A stretch of DNA of 56,353 nucleotides from Melioribacteraceae bacterium (GTDB taxonomy: Bacteria; Bacteroidota; Ignavibacteria; Ignavibacteriales; Melioribacteraceae). The DNA lies in NCBI GenBank assembly GCA_022181065.1, contig BQMY01000095.1:1-56353 (forward strand), in the 5' to 3' direction. Every line of letters begins with the position of its first letter. The stretch's first letter is position 1. Of the stretch, positions 38,127 to 45,085 are shown in pieces. A program made the translations under genes and the position numbers. The notes under the pieces were generated by a model. It was not told the origin of the DNA and searched no databases. It worked only from the letters and a program-made list of their open reading frames with translations.

Positions 38127-40535
38127 CTAGTTTGTTGCAGTGGAAAGTGTAAGTCGGAATTGAGGAGAATCTACCTGCGACAATCGGGCTGAGAGATCAA
38201 ACCTGAAAAAAAGTAATAATCTGTTCAGTCCTAATCCAGCTTCGTAATAATATTTATCTATTGTTTCTGTTGTGCCGATAAATTGCGGATTTTTTGATTT
38301 TACGCGTTCCGGATTACTGATCTTTGACCATCCGAAACCGCCATGTAAAATGAATTCGAGTCCGAAAGAAGTAATATTCGGGATTCTGAAAAGTCCCGGG
38401 ATCAGCTCACCAAAATTATGTTCAACTTTAACCTCGGCGTATCGATCACCGTAAAATTCTTTTATTTCCACACTTCTCAGAGCACCCGACGATGAAAATC
38501 CCGAAACGGAAGTTTCAAAACTGTGAAGCTTTTGGGCGGGTAATTCTCCCCAGGCGTAGCCGGCGTTTATAATTACATCCATTTTCCATATTGGTAATGT
38601 GGGAATCCTGAAATATGTTACCCCTGTCAGATTGCGGTATTTGTAATCGGAACTGATAAATGATGGTTCGGAGACCTCTAAATTCAGTGAAAATCCGAAA
38701 TTGGCAATTCTTTTCAGATTGGAATAATTCCAACTAAAAGTTGAATAGAAAGATCTTAGACGTCCTTCATCAGCAAGAGGATTATCTCTCAATTCTACAA
38801 GAGCGAAAACCTTTATTCTGTTATTGATGTAAGCACTTGATACAGTTTCATCCGTAAAACCCAGAGTAAATCTTAGTGGGCGTTCAAAGATATCCTTTTT
38901 TATATAATAATATTGCCCGGAAGTAAAATTGAATGAAATATCGTATCCATCGCTATAGTGGTAATCGGCGTAATGTCTGCCCAAAAACAAAGAGACCAGA
39001 GAAATTGAACGGGCGGTGTAAGGAGAATTCTCATTCCGTCTGCTTATTTTACTGTATAACGACCCGGAGAATAAATATTTCTGCTGCTCATCAAAATAAT
39101 AATCCAAATTAAGTATGGCATTGAGCCTGTTATTTGAGGTTCCGTAACCAAGTTTTGTGACGGTTTTTACATTATGTACCGGCTTGTATTCATACCCGCC
39201 TCCAAGATAAAAACCTTCAACACGGTTATAGCGTAGAAAATCATCAAAACCTGTAAATGGTTTCCTCTCAAGTTTGGCAATATTACGCGTTACAGGGGCA
39301 AAATATCGCTGAAATATGTTAGTCGTTTCAATTGAATCGGGATTCTCGCGCAAAGTTCTAATCTCATCATAAGCCCTCGATTCTTCCTGTCTCAACGGAA
39401 GAACGTTATTCTCCAGCCAAAACTGTTTATCGAAAGTATCCGCGTTGGAAGCTAATTCAACTTCACGATTATCAAAAATTCTATCGCTGAGGCTGGGATT
39501 AACCTCATAGTCATAGGATACATTATATATCTTTATATCAACACGGGCATCATATAGCCAGAATACCTCGACCGGAACGTTTGCTGAAATTTTCAAGCCG
39601 GCAGGAACGACAAACCCATCCTGTTCTTTAAATGACTGGGTATAACTCAAAATGGCGTCAAAAGGAAGTTTTACTGCCTCATTCGGGATAACTTCAATAT
39701 TCTCGGGTACCAGAGAGGCACCATCTATCTCCACTATTCCCGAAAAAAGTTTTCTTATACCCGTATCAGGTGTGATTTTTATCCTGGCTGTTTTATTTCC
39801 GTCGGCGTTTTCACTCCAGCCTAAAAGCTCAAAATCGTAAAAATCGACTGCGTCCGGATGAAAAGGGGTAGCCACTTTTTCACCAACCAGACTCACATAA
39901 TCATCGTATATATTTATGTTATTACCGAACGCTACATAATTAGCCTGTGGAGGTACATTAACACTTTGCCGTCTCTGGATAATCTCATTAAAATAGTAGT
40001 CAGGCTTTTTGAAGTATCCTTTTGAGTAAGTTTCAAAGATTGAAAAGATTGTAGTATCGGCATTGCCCGAACTTCGTCCTGCAGTAGTGGTATCTGTTGA
40101 GACAACAAATTTTGTGTATAGTTTATAAGTGTAGGAATTGAGTTTTTTACGTTGTTCTATCTTTTTCTCGATAGCGCTCCTCATGATCAGTTCACCCGGG
40201 TCTTCTCCTGTAACGAGTACTTCCGAAATTTTATAATCCCGTTTGGCAAGTTTTATATGAAGTGTGTCATCGTTTGTTGCAACAGTTTTTAGTTCAACAT
40301 TACTATATCCAATCATCGAAAAAACGATTGTATGCTCACCCACGGGCAGATTTAGCCGAAATTCCCCCTCATCGTTAGAAGCAGTTCCAATGGAAGTACC
40401 GTCAACGTATATATTTACAAAGGGGAGAGGTTCTCCGGTTTCAGTATCTGCAACCGAACCGATAATGGTGGCTGAAGTCTGTGCTGCAACAGGGTAAGCA
40501 AATACTATGATATAGAATAAAATTAAGGTTTTCAT
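38127..40535 (-). CDS. DUF5686/carboxypeptidase-regulatory-like outer membrane protein
   Basis: This 802-residue protein has a signal peptide (about 1-18, ending VAAQ). A CarboxypepD-regulatory-like beta-sandwich lies at about 22-105 (TIIGSVADTETGEPLPFVNIYVDGT). The rest fits the DUF5686 family of Bacteroidota outer-membrane proteins, with many aromatic amphipathic strands typical of a beta-barrel (GYDISFNFTSGQYYYIKK, RFTLGFTDETVSSAYI) and an end rich in alternating residues (LFFRFDLSARLSQ). It is TonB-receptor-like at its N terminus but no plug domain is evident. Its transport or assembly role is unknown. A structured repeat with its own terminator lies about 100 bases upstream. Confidence 0.86.
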   Translation of the reverse strand: MKTLILFYIIVFAYPVAAQTSATIIGSVADTETGEPLPFVNIYVDGTSIGTASNDEGEFRLNLPVGEHTIVFSMIGYSNVELKTVATNDDTLHIKLAKRDYKISEVLVTGEDPGELIMRSAIEKKIEQRKKLNSYTYKLYTKFVVSTDTTTAGRSSGNADTTIFSIFETYSKGYFKKPDYYFNEIIQRRQSVNVPPQANYVAFGNNINIYDDYVSLVGEKVATPFHPDAVDFYDFELLGWSENADGNKTARIKITPDTGIRKLFSGIVEIDGASLVPENIEVIPNEAVKLPFDAILSYTQSFKEQDGFVVPAGLKISANVPVEVFWLYDARVDIKIYNVSYDYEVNPSLSDRIFDNREVELASNADTFDKQFWLENNVLPLRQEESRAYDEIRTLRENPDSIETTNIFQRYFAPVTRNIAKLERKPFTGFDDFLRYNRVEGFYLGGGYEYKPVHNVKTVTKLGYGTSNNRLNAILNLDYYFDEQQKYLFSGSLYSKISRRNENSPYTARSISLVSLFLGRHYADYHYSDGYDISFNFTSGQYYYIKKDIFERPLRFTLGFTDETVSSAYINNRIKVFALVELRDNPLADEGRLRSFYSTFSWNYSNLKRIANFGFSLNLEVSEPSFISSDYKYRNLTGVTYFRIPTLPIWKMDVIINAGYAWGELPAQKLHSFETSVSGFSSSGALRSVEIKEFYGDRYAEVKVEHNFGELIPGLFRIPNITSFGLEFILHGGFGWSKISNPERVKSKNPQFIGTTETIDKYYYEAGLGLNRLLLFFRFDLSARLSQVDSPQFRLTLSTATN

Positions 40536-40636
40536 CTTTATACGATTTTAATACCGTAACAGATGATTGCTCTTTTTGGTTCTGTAACAGAAAATATAAA
40601 ATGATAGTGAATACGTACAAGTGTGAAGTCAATAAT

Positions 40637-40665
40637 AAAAAAACCCTCCCGGAATTCGAGAGGGT
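40637..40665 (-). terminator. Rho-independent terminator in repeat copy 1
   Basis: A 9-bp stem (ACCCTCTCG/CGGGAGGGT, one G-T pair, 5-base loop) is followed by seven T on the minus strand. Confidence 0.9.
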
Positions 40666-40771
40666 CAACCTATGCACCAACATAAAATGAACTTTCGAGC
40701 CGTTTAAACGACTATTTGGAGGCGGGACAGAAAAGACATGTGTTTTCTCCCCTAAAAAAAACACAGCTCCC
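40637..40771 (-). ncRNA. Duplicated structured element with terminator (candidate small RNA), copy 1
   Basis: This 135-bp segment differs from 43394-43528 at only two bases. On the minus strand it reads GTGTTTT...AAAACAC, then AGTCGT-TTAA-ACGGCT, then a terminator (ACCCTCTCG/CGGGAGGGT with seven T). The two differing bases fall in the loop of the middle hairpin. AGAAAA...TTTTCT can pair as an alternative to the first hairpin. It begins 53 bases past the stop of the propeller gene. Candidates are a small RNA, a conserved 3' UTR, or a recombination-linked repeat. Known RNA families were not recognised. Confidence 0.5.
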
Positions 40772-40823
40772 TCAAGTTATTTTTCACTAACATAGAAAAA
40801 ATCATCCACCTTCATATTTTAAA

Positions 40824-42701
40824 TTATATTCCACTATTTATCTGCACCAATTTATCTGCTGACGCTTCGATTCCTTTTCGAAGATTTACAAAATCTTCAC
40901 CAGTCTTTTTTATTGTTTCTAACTCTTTTTTTACACTGTCAATACCTGGCACAGAGGGTAAATTAAATTTTAGTTTTTTAACCAATGGCTTCATTAGCTT
41001 TTTTGCCCACTTGTTGGCTACTTTTTGAATTGCCTTGCCAACTTTTCCACCAGTTAATATTTTACGAGCGCTGACTTTAAATGTTTTGCCCAAAACCTTT
41101 TTCTTAAAACTCTTGTTTAATGCTTTATTAACTCCATTCACTACTTTGTCTACATTTTTAAGCTTACTGACTAATTTATCAATAGACTTGTTATAAGTAT
41201 CTATCGGTTTTTTTACTTTTGAAATGGTAGAATTTATTTGTGTTACCTTATTTGATTCACTTGATATTTTATTTAGCGCTTCATTAATCTGAGAATCGAA
41301 TCTTTTGATTTTTGCGGTTTTCCCTCCGCTGTTTGACGCGGTTCCATTATCGATTGATATCAATTTTGATAATATTGCAAGTACATTTGTTTCCGCCTTA
41401 TTTATCGCGCCAAGCGTTTTGTTAGCGTTCCCAAGCGTCGGCTTTACCGCTACCTTATTAATATTCTCAGATTTGCCTTTAACTTTATTAACCTGGTCAG
41501 CCGATGTATTTATCGTTACGCGGGCAGCGACAGCGGCACTTCCAATAATTGGTACCTTACCAAATCCTTCCAGGGCGCTGCTGTAATCTTCAAGACGGCG
41601 GCTGATTCTCTCTATTTGGTAATCAATCTTATCGGCTGATTTAAGTGTTGCAACACTGCCCCATTGCAAATCATCGGCAATTTTAGAGATTTTCTTTTGT
41701 CCATTAATCAAATCGGTATATGTTTTTTTTAGGCTGCCATCGGATATGCTATTTGGAATATATCCAACATTAACAAATGTCCATGCGTGTCCGTTACGGG
41801 GATTTGTGGCCATAACTCTCGGGATGCCATTTTTTGTATAACTTGTTAATCCCTGAATTCCTTTCTCCCATGAAGATGTTTTCCATCGAATAGTTCCCAT
41901 CTGGGCGTTTTTAGTTATATCAAATATATGCGCTTCACCTGTTTCTCCTTTTACCAGCATGAGATGATTTGTTCCGCCATAGTTAAAAACGGTAGAAGCA
42001 TTTGTATTTTTGCCCCATCCTCTTGAGCCCCAGGTCCTTTTACCTATTTTACCAGAGGAGGTAATTTCATTAATCTGTACTTCACCTTTTGTAGAATGTG
42101 TAAATAAATATGTTTTACCATTCTGATTAAAAGTAGACATATTCCTGATATAGGAACGTTTTTGTTTATCGCTAAATTTACCAAGCTTGCCATCTGATGA
42201 AATCGGGGCTACCCAGATATGACCTTTTTTATCATTTTGGGAGAAAATTGCGAAATCCTTATTTCCTACTTTTGCTACAACTGCCTCATCTAAATTTTTT
42301 ACCCAGCCTTTTTTCTTTCTGTCCCACGTAAATTTCCCTACTTTTCCATTTGCATTTAATTGAAGCAGCCATGCATGCCCGTTTCTTCCATTTAAAAGAA
42401 ATACATAATTCTGACTGCCAATCTTAAATGTTGAAGCGCACTCAATACCCTTTTCCCAGTTTGTCGTTTTCCAGGTCTGATCACCTATTTCCCCGTTCTC
42501 ATTTAATTCATATATCCAAGCTGTGCCTTTTGTGCTTATCATTAATACAAAGTTTTTACCATCAGCCTCGTATGAAGCAATTTCTTTGATGTTTTTTTGC
42601 CAATCTGTGGTTTTCCAGGTTATTCGGGGATTTTGTGCATGAATTGATAAAGTCATAAAAAGAACTAAAGATGCTAGTATCCCTCTTAATGTGAAAATCA
42701 T
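40824..42701 (-). CDS. Secreted six-repeat propeller with long helical C-terminal domain, family not recognised
   Basis: This 625-residue protein has a signal peptide (about 1-22, ending IHAQ). Six repeats of about 46-48 residues follow at 28-310, each with a TW(K/D)xxxW-K motif at the start and GHAW..L..NGKIG at the end (for example TTNWEKGIECA, GRNGHAWLLQLNANGKVGK). This suggests a six-bladed propeller. Residues from about 320 to 625 are helical, lysine-rich and partly coiled-coil, with no cysteine (KPIDTYNKSIDKLVSKLKN, KKLMKPLVKKLKFNLPSVPG). There is no type IX sorting domain. GGAGAA precedes the ATG. I do not recognise the family. A surface-active, pore-forming or carrier function is conceivable but unsupported. 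It lies between two copies of a 135-bp repeat. Confidence 0.78.
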   Translation of the reverse strand: MIFTLRGILASLVLFMTLSIHAQNPRITWKTTDWQKNIKEIASYEADGKNFVLMISTKGTAWIYELNENGEIGDQTWKTTNWEKGIECASTFKIGSQNYVFLLNGRNGHAWLLQLNANGKVGKFTWDRKKKGWVKNLDEAVVAKVGNKDFAIFSQNDKKGHIWVAPISSDGKLGKFSDKQKRSYIRNMSTFNQNGKTYLFTHSTKGEVQINEITSSGKIGKRTWGSRGWGKNTNASTVFNYGGTNHLMLVKGETGEAHIFDITKNAQMGTIRWKTSSWEKGIQGLTSYTKNGIPRVMATNPRNGHAWTFVNVGYIPNSISDGSLKKTYTDLINGQKKISKIADDLQWGSVATLKSADKIDYQIERISRRLEDYSSALEGFGKVPIIGSAAVAARVTINTSADQVNKVKGKSENINKVAVKPTLGNANKTLGAINKAETNVLAILSKLISIDNGTASNSGGKTAKIKRFDSQINEALNKISSESNKVTQINSTISKVKKPIDTYNKSIDKLVSKLKNVDKVVNGVNKALNKSFKKKVLGKTFKVSARKILTGGKVGKAIQKVANKWAKKLMKPLVKKLKFNLPSVPGIDSVKKELETIKKTGEDFVNLRKGIEASADKLVQINSGI

Positions 42702-42993
42702 TTTTTCTCCATAATTTTGTTAAAGTTTGCGGGTGAATGGAAAAGGCTGTCAGTGGTTACAAATTAGCCAAATTATATCATGAGAAAAGCATCCTAATAA
42801 CCTTCATTGGGGAAAACAGCCGTATTTCCATATAACATAATTAATGAAAATAGTGAATAATTATTTTTATTAAAAAAACAAAGTAAGAAAAAGACAAAAA
42901 AGTATGAGACTGAAAATAGTCTTTACATCGAAACAGATAACACCCTGAGGTGGCACAACGTTGATGTATCAAATTTAGAACAAGTTGAAAGTA
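42702..42993. other. AT-rich spacer upstream of the propeller gene
   Basis: I see no gene in this stretch. It should contain the promoter of the propeller gene on the minus strand and perhaps the eroded middle of the transposase that follows on the plus strand. Confidence 0.5.
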
Positions 42994-43347
42994 ACCAGTT
43001 TACTGGAAAACAAGCATGCTTTCTTTGCAGAAAACTTTAATGTTAATAAATTCCGTGCTACAGGATCAGCTATTAACATTATAATGATAGCCTGTAATAA
43101 ATTAAGTTTATTTAGACAGGTGGTCTTGAATGAAAGGTGACAGCCGTTTTTGAAAACAGTAAGATATACTACTTTTGCTATGATAGCTTTCATGGTAAAA
43201 AAAGGAAATTCGATGGTTCTTAAACTGAATTTAGATATAAGAAGAAAACAATGGTTAAAAACTTTATGGGCAAACTCTGATAGTTGTTTATTGCCTTTTA
43301 AACCCGATAGAAGTTTCTTATCACAAATCCGGGAAATTTTAATTTGA
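42994..43347 (+). pseudogene. C-terminal remnant of an IS1380-family transposase
   Basis: Reading from 42994 gives about 117 codons with the C-terminal pattern of IS1380 DDE transposases: FRATGSAINIIMIACNKLSLFRQVVL, then PFLKTVRYTTFAMIAFMVKKG, then KLNLDIRRKQWLKTLWANSD. An in-frame TGA at 43138 interrupts it, right after LNER. No start, no upstream catalytic region and no inverted repeats are left. It is a dead fragment. Confidence 0.82.
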
Positions 43348-43393
43348 CCGTAGGTGTTTCGCTTACACCCCCGGAGTTTTTATATATGGATGA

Positions 43394-43422
43394 AAAAAAA
43401 CCCTCCCGGAATTCGAGAGGGT
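43394..43422 (-). terminator. Rho-independent terminator in repeat copy 2
   Basis: The same 9-bp stem, 5-base loop and T tract as in copy 1. Confidence 0.9.
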
Positions 43423-43528
43423 CAACCTATGCACCAACATAAAATGAACTTTCGAGCCGTAAAAACGACTATTTGGAGGCGGGACAGAAAAGACATGTGT
43501 TTTCTCCCCTAAAAAAAACACAGCTCCC
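43394..43528 (-). ncRNA. Duplicated structured element with terminator (candidate small RNA), copy 2
   Basis: This is the second copy of the 135-bp element at 40637-40771. The middle hairpin loop is TTTT here and TTAA there. It starts 3 bases after the stop of the 85-residue protein gene, so here it also serves as that gene's 3' end. The terminator is at 43394-43422. Confidence 0.5.
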
Positions 43529-43531
43529 CTG

Positions 43532-43789
43532 TTACTTGTATTTGGGTTGATATACTATCTTTCTGATAGTATCGAACTGAAGATAAGGATACTCTTCACG
43601 AAGAAGATCTATAGCTTCACCTGCGCTTACTTTCTCCTGTCGAAGCGCACGAAATTTTGTTCTGATTTTGTAGTCGCGTACCGACTTTTCATTTATCAAT
43701 CCCCTGCTGCTGAGCGATTCATAGATGTCGTCCGGTATCAATTCCGCTAAAGGATTTTCTATTTGATCCTTCAATTCAAGGTCTTTCAT
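43532..43789 (-). CDS. Small protein of unknown function, HTH-like
   Basis: This 85-residue acidic-then-basic protein has a good GGGGAG box before its ATG. It is predicted to be mostly helical. The second half (RTKFRALRQEKVSAGEAIDLL, then YLQFDTIRKIVYQPKYK) could be a helix-turn-helix that binds DNA, but I do not recognise the family. It has no signal peptide or membrane segment. It ends 3 bases before copy 2 of the structured repeat. Confidence 0.7.
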   Translation of the reverse strand: MKDLELKDQIENPLAELIPDDIYESLSSRGLINEKSVRDYKIRTKFRALRQEKVSAGEAIDLLREEYPYLQFDTIRKIVYQPKYK

Positions 43790-44281
43790 AACTCCCCCGA
43801 ATTATTCTCTGATTAATGAATGTTCAACTTCTGAGTACAATATTGCATTTCAAAATCAGTATAACAACAGCATATGTGTGTGGTTTTAAAGGGAGATTTT
43901 CATAAACCCCGCATAAATATGTAGTTTAAACTTTAACCGGAATAAAAATTCAATTGAATCCGAACCGATTTTTACCTTCGACTAAAGACCAACGACTGAC
44001 GACTTTCGACTATTATAGGCGGGTGAGCCCTTCGGCGAGCTCAGGAACCTTATTCCAGGGTTGCTGAGGCCCTCGAAGCACCCGTAGCCCCCGTGAATTG
44101 CACGTGCATCCAGTTTTTCTCTTTCAGTTTTGACTATAAAAAGTGTCTGAGCTCGTCGAAGACCCGTCACTTTATTCTGCACAATGCCAGGCCCTTCCCC
44201 GCACACGGGGCAGGCGAAACACCTCAGGAACCTTATTTCAGGGTGGGTGAGGTCACTCGAACAACCGATGCGCCGATGTGA
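43790..44281. other. Intergenic repeat region
   Basis: No gene can be supported. The right half is repeat-derived: a GTCTGAGCTCGTCGAAGACCC segment like that at 5875, a CCCCG..CGGGGCAGGCGAA unit, and two CAGGAACCTTATT(C/T)CAGGGT segments. Confidence 0.6.
44197..44218 (+). repeat. CCCCG-N-CGGGG-CAGGCGAA hairpin repeat
   Basis: The hairpin CCCCG-CACA-CGGGG is followed by CAGGCGAA and ACCTC. It belongs to the same family as 5933-5953. Confidence 0.7.
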
Positions 44282-45085
44282 TTAACTCAATTTCTGTTCC
44301 AGTCGATTGATCTGTTCCTTGAGCTTTCGAAGGTCTAGCAGAACATCATCTCTTTCTGAATTTACTATTTGTTCTATTTTCTCAAGACCCAATTCCGCTT
44401 CCTTTTGCTGGATTTCGCTCATGGTGTTCACAACAATCGCGATAAATATATTAAGTGTTGTATATGTCGCGATAAGTATAAATGGAATAAAATACAAAAA
44501 CGCATATGGGAAAACTTCCATAACAGGACGTGAGATACCCATTGACCAGCTTTCGAGTGTCATCACCTGAAATAGTGAGTACATCGATTTTCCGAGTGAA
44601 CCGAAAAAGTGGGGGAATTCCGCGCCGAACAGGAAAGTGCCAATTACCGCGAATACGTAAAATATTATTAGAAGCAGAACGAATATCCACATTATGGACG
44701 GAATGGAATGGAGCAAAGCCTCAACGATAAAGCGAAGTTTGGGAACCGCTTTTAATAAACGGAATGAACGGAATATTCTTAGCGTTCTAAGTACCGATAG
44801 TCCGCTGCCACTTGGAAAAAGCGCAATACTCACAATTATAAAATCGAATATATTCCAGCCGTTTTTGAAGAACTTCAAGTCGAATGCATAAACTTTCAAC
44901 ATAATTTCAACAACAAAAACACCTAAAATGATTTTATCGAGCATCATTAGCAAGCTGCCATACCGTTTCATGATGTCGGGAGAAGTCTCCAAACCGATGG
45001 TAACAGAGTTAACCAATATCAACGCTACAATAAAATTCTGGACAGAGGGGCTTTCTATCCATTGACCTATTATTTTTCTTTTCAT
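44282..45085 (-). CDS. NaChBac-type voltage-gated sodium channel
   Basis: This 267-residue protein is a one-domain six-transmembrane channel. S4 carries four regularly spaced arginines (R100, R103, R106, R109 in LRTLRIFRSFRLLK). The pore selectivity filter reads TLESWS at 176-181, the signature of sodium-selective bacterial Nav channels. S6 (TLNIFIAIVVNTM) is followed by a C-terminal coiled coil (LDLRKLKEQINRLEQKL) that typically holds the tetramer together. The length matches NaChBac. It is divergently placed from the Mrp antiporter operon, so regulation could be shared. Gating of this particular channel cannot be inferred. Confidence 0.93.
   Translation of the reverse strand: MKRKIIGQWIESPSVQNFIVALILVNSVTIGLETSPDIMKRYGSLLMMLDKIILGVFVVEIMLKVYAFDLKFFKNGWNIFDFIIVSIALFPSGSGLSVLRTLRIFRSFRLLKAVPKLRFIVEALLHSIPSIMWIFVLLLIIFYVFAVIGTFLFGAEFPHFFGSLGKSMYSLFQVMTLESWSMGISRPVMEVFPYAFLYFIPFILIATYTTLNIFIAIVVNTMSEIQQKEAELGLEKIEQIVNSERDDVLLDLRKLKEQINRLEQKLS

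Follow-up and report, generated by a model that had tools for sequence, protein, structure and literature searches.

Background

Intrinsic (Rho-independent) terminators, integron attC sites and small RNAs of the 6C/B11 type are the described systems closest to the DNA element, and to a separate RNA, analysed in this work. The element shares with intrinsic terminators a G+C-rich stem, a short loop and a T run located after stop codons on the coding strand, and differs from them in carrying about 105 extra upstream bases that are duplicated almost perfectly. Integron attC sites are comparable in size at about 135 bp, and the likeness extends to near-identical copies located 3' of genes and to an integrase in the same genome; unlike attC sites, the element lacks a core-site pair and does not match the DNA surrounding that integrase. 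The separate RNA, with C-rich loops, is comparable in design to the 6C/B11-type sRNAs. It resembles the element in being located after a gene of the same family (encoding an 85-aa protein) and in ending with a terminator hairpin, and within the window its 9-mer TTCTCCCCT is confined to a hairpin on the element's opposite strand.

The window is the entire stretch of DNA that was analysed, i.e., 56,353 nucleotides of contig BQMY01000095.1 (referred to as C95) from a Melioribacteraceae bacterium, whose genome assembly consists of 4,901,315 bases in 164 contigs. The initial annotation of this DNA described two almost identical structured elements of 135 bp and offered three explanations for them: a new small RNA family, a conserved 3' UTR, or an attenuator-like switch. 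We propose that the element is likely a 3'-UTR/terminator module specific to this lineage, whose two copies stem from a recent local duplication around an accessory gene. A second RNA, found after homologues of one of the two neighboring genes, is described separately.

Results

Two copies of the element and their host genes

The two copies, E1 and E2, are located downstream of two genes encoded on the minus strand:

43532-43789, minus strand: 85-aa gene; E1 starts 3 nt past its stop codon
43394-43528, minus strand: element copy E1, 3' UTR of the 85-aa gene (repeat search, own-genome BLAST, alignment)
40824-42701, minus strand: 625-aa accessory gene; E2 starts 52 nt past its stop codon
40637-40771, minus strand: element copy E2, 3' UTR of the 625-aa gene (repeat search, own-genome BLAST, alignment)

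The near-identity first reported for the pair was borne out, with 133 of 135 bases identical between E1 and E2. A repeat search of positions 40000-44300 gave this pair (135 nt, 99% identical, spacing 2757) and no other direct repeat above 30 nt. In BLAST against the own genome, the second copy was matched far above chance (E = 1.2e-62), and no further copy reached E <= 0.001. The copies are in direct orientation and the sequences flanking them are unrelated, which together with the 133/135 identity fits recent copying. On the minus strand the difference is UU in E1 (43462-43461) and AA in E2 (40705-40704), i.e., the two changes are adjacent, at positions 70-71 of the 138-nt alignment. The positions of the copies after the two stop codons, with a terminator-like hairpin on the same strand, agree with the 3' UTR part of the earlier description; the word "conserved" does not hold, as detailed below.

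The 85-aa protein belongs to a family found in 87 of the 97 genomes searched (own genome included), with up to five matches per genome and three paralogues elsewhere in the own genome, and searches of Pfam and PDB with it returned nothing at E <= 1. Few genomes carry the 625-aa gene (7 of 97 at E <= 1e-8, the own genome again counted). Its product has, by eye, a signal-like N terminus and GHAW-type repeats, and its C-terminal part gave coiled-coil matches that were all below threshold. A paralogue with 37% identity is encoded on contig C83. The same contig encodes a 770-aa protein (G000:C83, L039:5233-7545) whose C-terminal part is 24-27% identical to that of the 625-aa protein; the N-terminal parts of the two proteins differ, which suggests that the C-terminal part is a shared module.

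Predicted fold and terminator

The following hairpins are predicted in the two copies on the minus strand:

43399-43423, minus strand: E1 terminator-like hairpin, 10-pair stem followed by a T run (pattern scan and pair probabilities)
40642-40666, minus strand: E2 terminator-like hairpin, 10-pair stem followed by a T run (pattern scan and pair probabilities)
43497-43521, minus strand: predicted 5' hairpin of E1, GUGUUUUUUUUAGGGGAGAAAACAC
40740-40764, minus strand: predicted 5' hairpin of E2, same sequence as in E1
43455-43470, minus strand: predicted E1 hairpin bearing the two-base difference, loop UUUU
40698-40713, minus strand: predicted E2 hairpin bearing the two-base difference, loop UUAA

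Both copies thus have the G+C-rich hairpin and T run of an intrinsic terminator on the strand of their genes, and a separate terminator scan found the pattern in E1 and E2 on the minus strand only. Three terminator patterns were detected in the scanned 4 kb (40300-44300) vs 2.7 expected from shuffled sequences, so the terminator count by itself is not significant. The terminator stem is predicted with pair probabilities of 0.976-0.996 in both copies, except at the A-U pair that closes it (0.75 and 0.83).

When folded with a few flanking bases, the element scored z = -2.44 and -2.78 in the two copies, with 3 and 1 of 200 shuffles as good. Upon removal of the terminator, the values were -0.69 and -1.40 (equalled or surpassed by 43 and 18 of 200 shuffles), and the middle 51 nt by themselves gave -1.28 and -1.75 (18 and 14 of 200 shuffles). 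The fold of the whole element therefore beats shuffled sequences mostly because of the terminator, and the remainder is not clearly predicted to fold better than its shuffles.

These figures bear on the possibility that the element encodes a functional sRNA, or an sRNA processed from a 3' UTR, kept in two near-identical copies whose hairpins pair with targets. The identity of E1 and E2, the z values of the whole element, the terminator-like hairpin at its end and a minus-strand 5' hairpin that is predicted to be stable and has AGGGGAG in its tip region would all suit such an RNA. The z values of the non-terminator part, close to those of shuffles, argue against it, as does the promoter search, in which a simple consensus applied to 40300-44300 gave no minus-strand promoter-like site inside either copy or within 300 nt upstream. 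With no homologue and no Rfam match at the gathering threshold either (see below), we consider an sRNA unlikely.

The confinement of both changes to the 4-nt loop of a predicted AGUCGU-NNNN-ACGGCU hairpin was confirmed. The initial annotation had pointed out that a structured RNA predicts such a pattern, while calling two changes a small sample; two adjacent bases amount to about one event. In the predicted E2 fold, 12 of 137 dinucleotides (about 9%) fall inside hairpin loops, and in 42 of 137 both bases are unpaired, so the location of the two-base change carries little weight.

The hairpins named in the initial annotation can all be drawn, including AGAAAA..UUUUCU, the alternative pairing that in an attenuator or riboswitch would compete with GUGUUUU..AAAACAC. 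As isolated hairpins the two differ little in stability (-7.0 and -8.2 kcal/mol), which speaks for a switch. Within the whole element, however, the pair probabilities leave the alternative hairpin with 0.001-0.008, i.e., negligible, while the terminator stem is stable in both copies, so that no alternation of terminator and antiterminator is predicted. In addition, the element is located downstream of its genes and not upstream, and no homologue was detected by BLAST or covariance model. An attenuator-like switch is thus disfavored and appears extremely improbable.

Search for homologues of the element

No homologue of the element was found by BLAST in the 96 other genomes (own genome only, 1/97), nor any match in phages or plasmids. 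A 30-mer of the element had no exact match in the genome contig collection, and a 25-mer had none in the viral contig collection. At E <= 0.01 the covariance model R1 detected the own genome and none of the 163 others of the order; the search of all 164 genomes was run with stricter filters, by which weak matches can be lost. At E <= 0.1, R1 matched 4 of 79 genomes of the family, i.e., the own genome and three others with 20.8-22.4 bits (E = 0.0013-0.0033 in a smaller search). These three resemble the element chiefly at the terminator hairpin, with much of the remainder disrupted in the alignments, and are therefore read as similar terminators. R1 also gave no match at E <= 1 in the 10 kb fetched around the C83 paralogue of the 625-aa gene, or in the 4 kb fetched at each of three other loci of the 85-aa family (L036-L039, C83 included).

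Comparison of the whole window with Rfam, proposed in the initial annotation, yielded nothing at the gathering threshold. Membership in a conserved structured RNA family, with covarying stems in homologues or an Rfam match, is accordingly not supported, and since no homologue was found, a "new small RNA family" is left without comparative support.

Surroundings and origin of the second copy

The G+C content is 0.362 in the 625-aa gene and 0.315 in the 692 bp upstream of it, compared to 0.401 in the window. These 692 bp between the copies are single copy in the genome (best other match E = 0.13). No match to the 625-aa, 802-aa or 267-aa proteins was found near 29 loci of 85-aa homologues (mostly 1.5-kb flanks), nor near a further 22 loci (flanks up to 2.5 kb; some contigs shared with the first 29). 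With no empty site or syntenic relative at these loci, the direction and the mechanism of the duplication are guesses.

Direct repeats that bracket an accessory gene together with 692 bp of AT-rich DNA could be the ends or scars of a mobile unit, i.e., an IS or MITE, an integron cassette or a site-specific integration, that delivered the 625-aa gene. An integron integrase is indeed encoded in the genome, on contig C116 (G000:C116:37305-38246; L052, L060), with 431 bits vs a curated cut-off of 265, and attC sites were tested for this reason. No RYYYAAC...GTTRRRY pair 40-160 nt long was present in 40500-43900 (core motifs searched as exact consensus only), and no BLAST match of the element (E <= 1) was found to the 18 kb around the integrase; the attC assignment was rejected on these two results. 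None of the inverted repeats of at least 14 nt in 40000-44300 pairs two element ends, and there are just two copies in the genome, so that an IS end or MITE, with its terminal inverted repeats and multiple copies, is not supported either. Among six proteins tested there was no transposase or integrase Pfam match. Delivery by a mobile unit is, in our estimate, quite unlikely.

Two other repeats were observed in the same genome. Near the C116 integrase, short repeats in direct orientation (36-44 nt, 84-86% alike) may be attC-like sites. The intergenic segment 43990-44281 of the window consists of pieces of a dispersed repeat; parts of the segment have 45 own-genome matches at E <= 0.001 (itself included), with regularly spaced copies on contig C77.

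A separate C-rich-loop RNA after 85-aa-family genes

A C-rich-loop RNA follows the 85-aa-family gene at 22 of 29 loci and also on contig C147 of the own genome:

L036:1035-1109 (G000:C147): C-rich-loop RNA of the own genome, match to covariance model R2, ~80 nt

The usual order is a promoter (TTGACA-TATATT type), a hairpin, a terminator hairpin with a C-rich loop, and a small gene. The loop of the first hairpin is UUCUCCCCUG in many loci. The product of the small gene downstream on C147 gave a sub-threshold match to DUF3098 (21.5 bits vs a cut-off of 25). Model R2 was built from 23 sequences and detected the RNA at 13 of 22 further loci (some contigs shared with the first set). It matched 102 of 146 genomes at E <= 0.01, the own genome included, and its copy number is one in the own genome and reaches eight in a relative; on G131:C357 three copies are located about 160 nt apart.

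Base pairs were counted over 55 of the fetched loci, after removal of loci that duplicated a place already included, of one locus whose score equalled that of another, and of loci with no match. In the resulting 51 distinct sequences, 96.9% of cells pair and 14 of the 18 pairs show double changes. The covariation score was 0.437, compared to 0.205 for shuffled alignments (0 of 500 reached the observed value) and at most 0.112 for slid controls; the alignment had been fitted to R2, which biases it towards the structure of that model. RNAalifold on a MAFFT alignment (A3) likewise found double changes in 14 of 18 pairs. CCCC is present in the terminator loop of all 51 sequences and CUCCCC in the first loop of 36. 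A recognisable promoter was found upstream in 45 of the 51, and of the other six, L036 and L105 had the promoter cut by the short stretch tested. In an Rfam search of 14 of these loci only 16S rRNA, at four loci, reached gathering scores, and no paper on Melioribacter and noncoding RNA was found in the part of the literature available to us. Within that part of the literature, the C-rich-loop RNA is probably a new sRNA family of Ignavibacteriales.

The element itself is not a member of this family: its best R2 scores were 6.6 and 6.1 bits with filters off (E = 3.7 and 4.9 in 12 kb), which is chance level, and descent of the element from the C-rich RNA was rejected on the same scores. The tip region of the 5' hairpin on the minus strand contains AGGGGAG, exactly complementary to the first-loop motif CUCCCCU of the C-rich RNA, and the duplicated 3' UTRs could in principle have evolved as decoys for that RNA. 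Against this, the predicted fold leaves only three bases of the AGGGGAG tip unpaired. In addition, the genome has a single R2 match, on C147, which lacks the CUCCCC loop and has CCCCCC in its terminator loop, leaving about four pairs with the element tip. A decoy function is very unlikely.

Discussion

We propose that the transcripts of the 85-aa and 625-aa genes would each run into one copy of the element on the minus strand and would presumably end at the CCCUCUCG-AAUUC-CGGGAGGG-U7 hairpin; the hairpins upstream of this terminator may protect the 3' end. With its observed sequence identity, its position and orientation at both genes, its terminator pattern and no homologue elsewhere in the genomes searched, the element is best explained as the lineage-private 3'-UTR/terminator module introduced above. 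Such a module would have been copied once and recently, either together with the 625-aa gene and the AT-rich 692 bp upstream of it or as a consequence of their arrival. The second copy may have arisen by segmental duplication, by gene conversion, or by single-crossover integration of DNA carrying the 625-aa gene and the element; candidate routes in outline are tandem duplication with loss, gene conversion, and single-crossover integration through the element. Against a plain terminator stands the fact that about 30 of the 135 bases would suffice for termination; the near-identity of the remaining 105 bases is put down to recency.

Conclusions

Read as a terminator that was duplicated around an accessory gene, the element is a commonplace product of local rearrangement in the genome. 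The value of the E1/E2 comparison is mainly negative, in that a near-identical pair with changes in a loop is not evidence for a structured RNA family. The strongly covarying C-rich-loop RNA found after genes of the 85-aa family, by comparison, could become a model system for riboregulation through C-rich loops in Ignavibacteriales.
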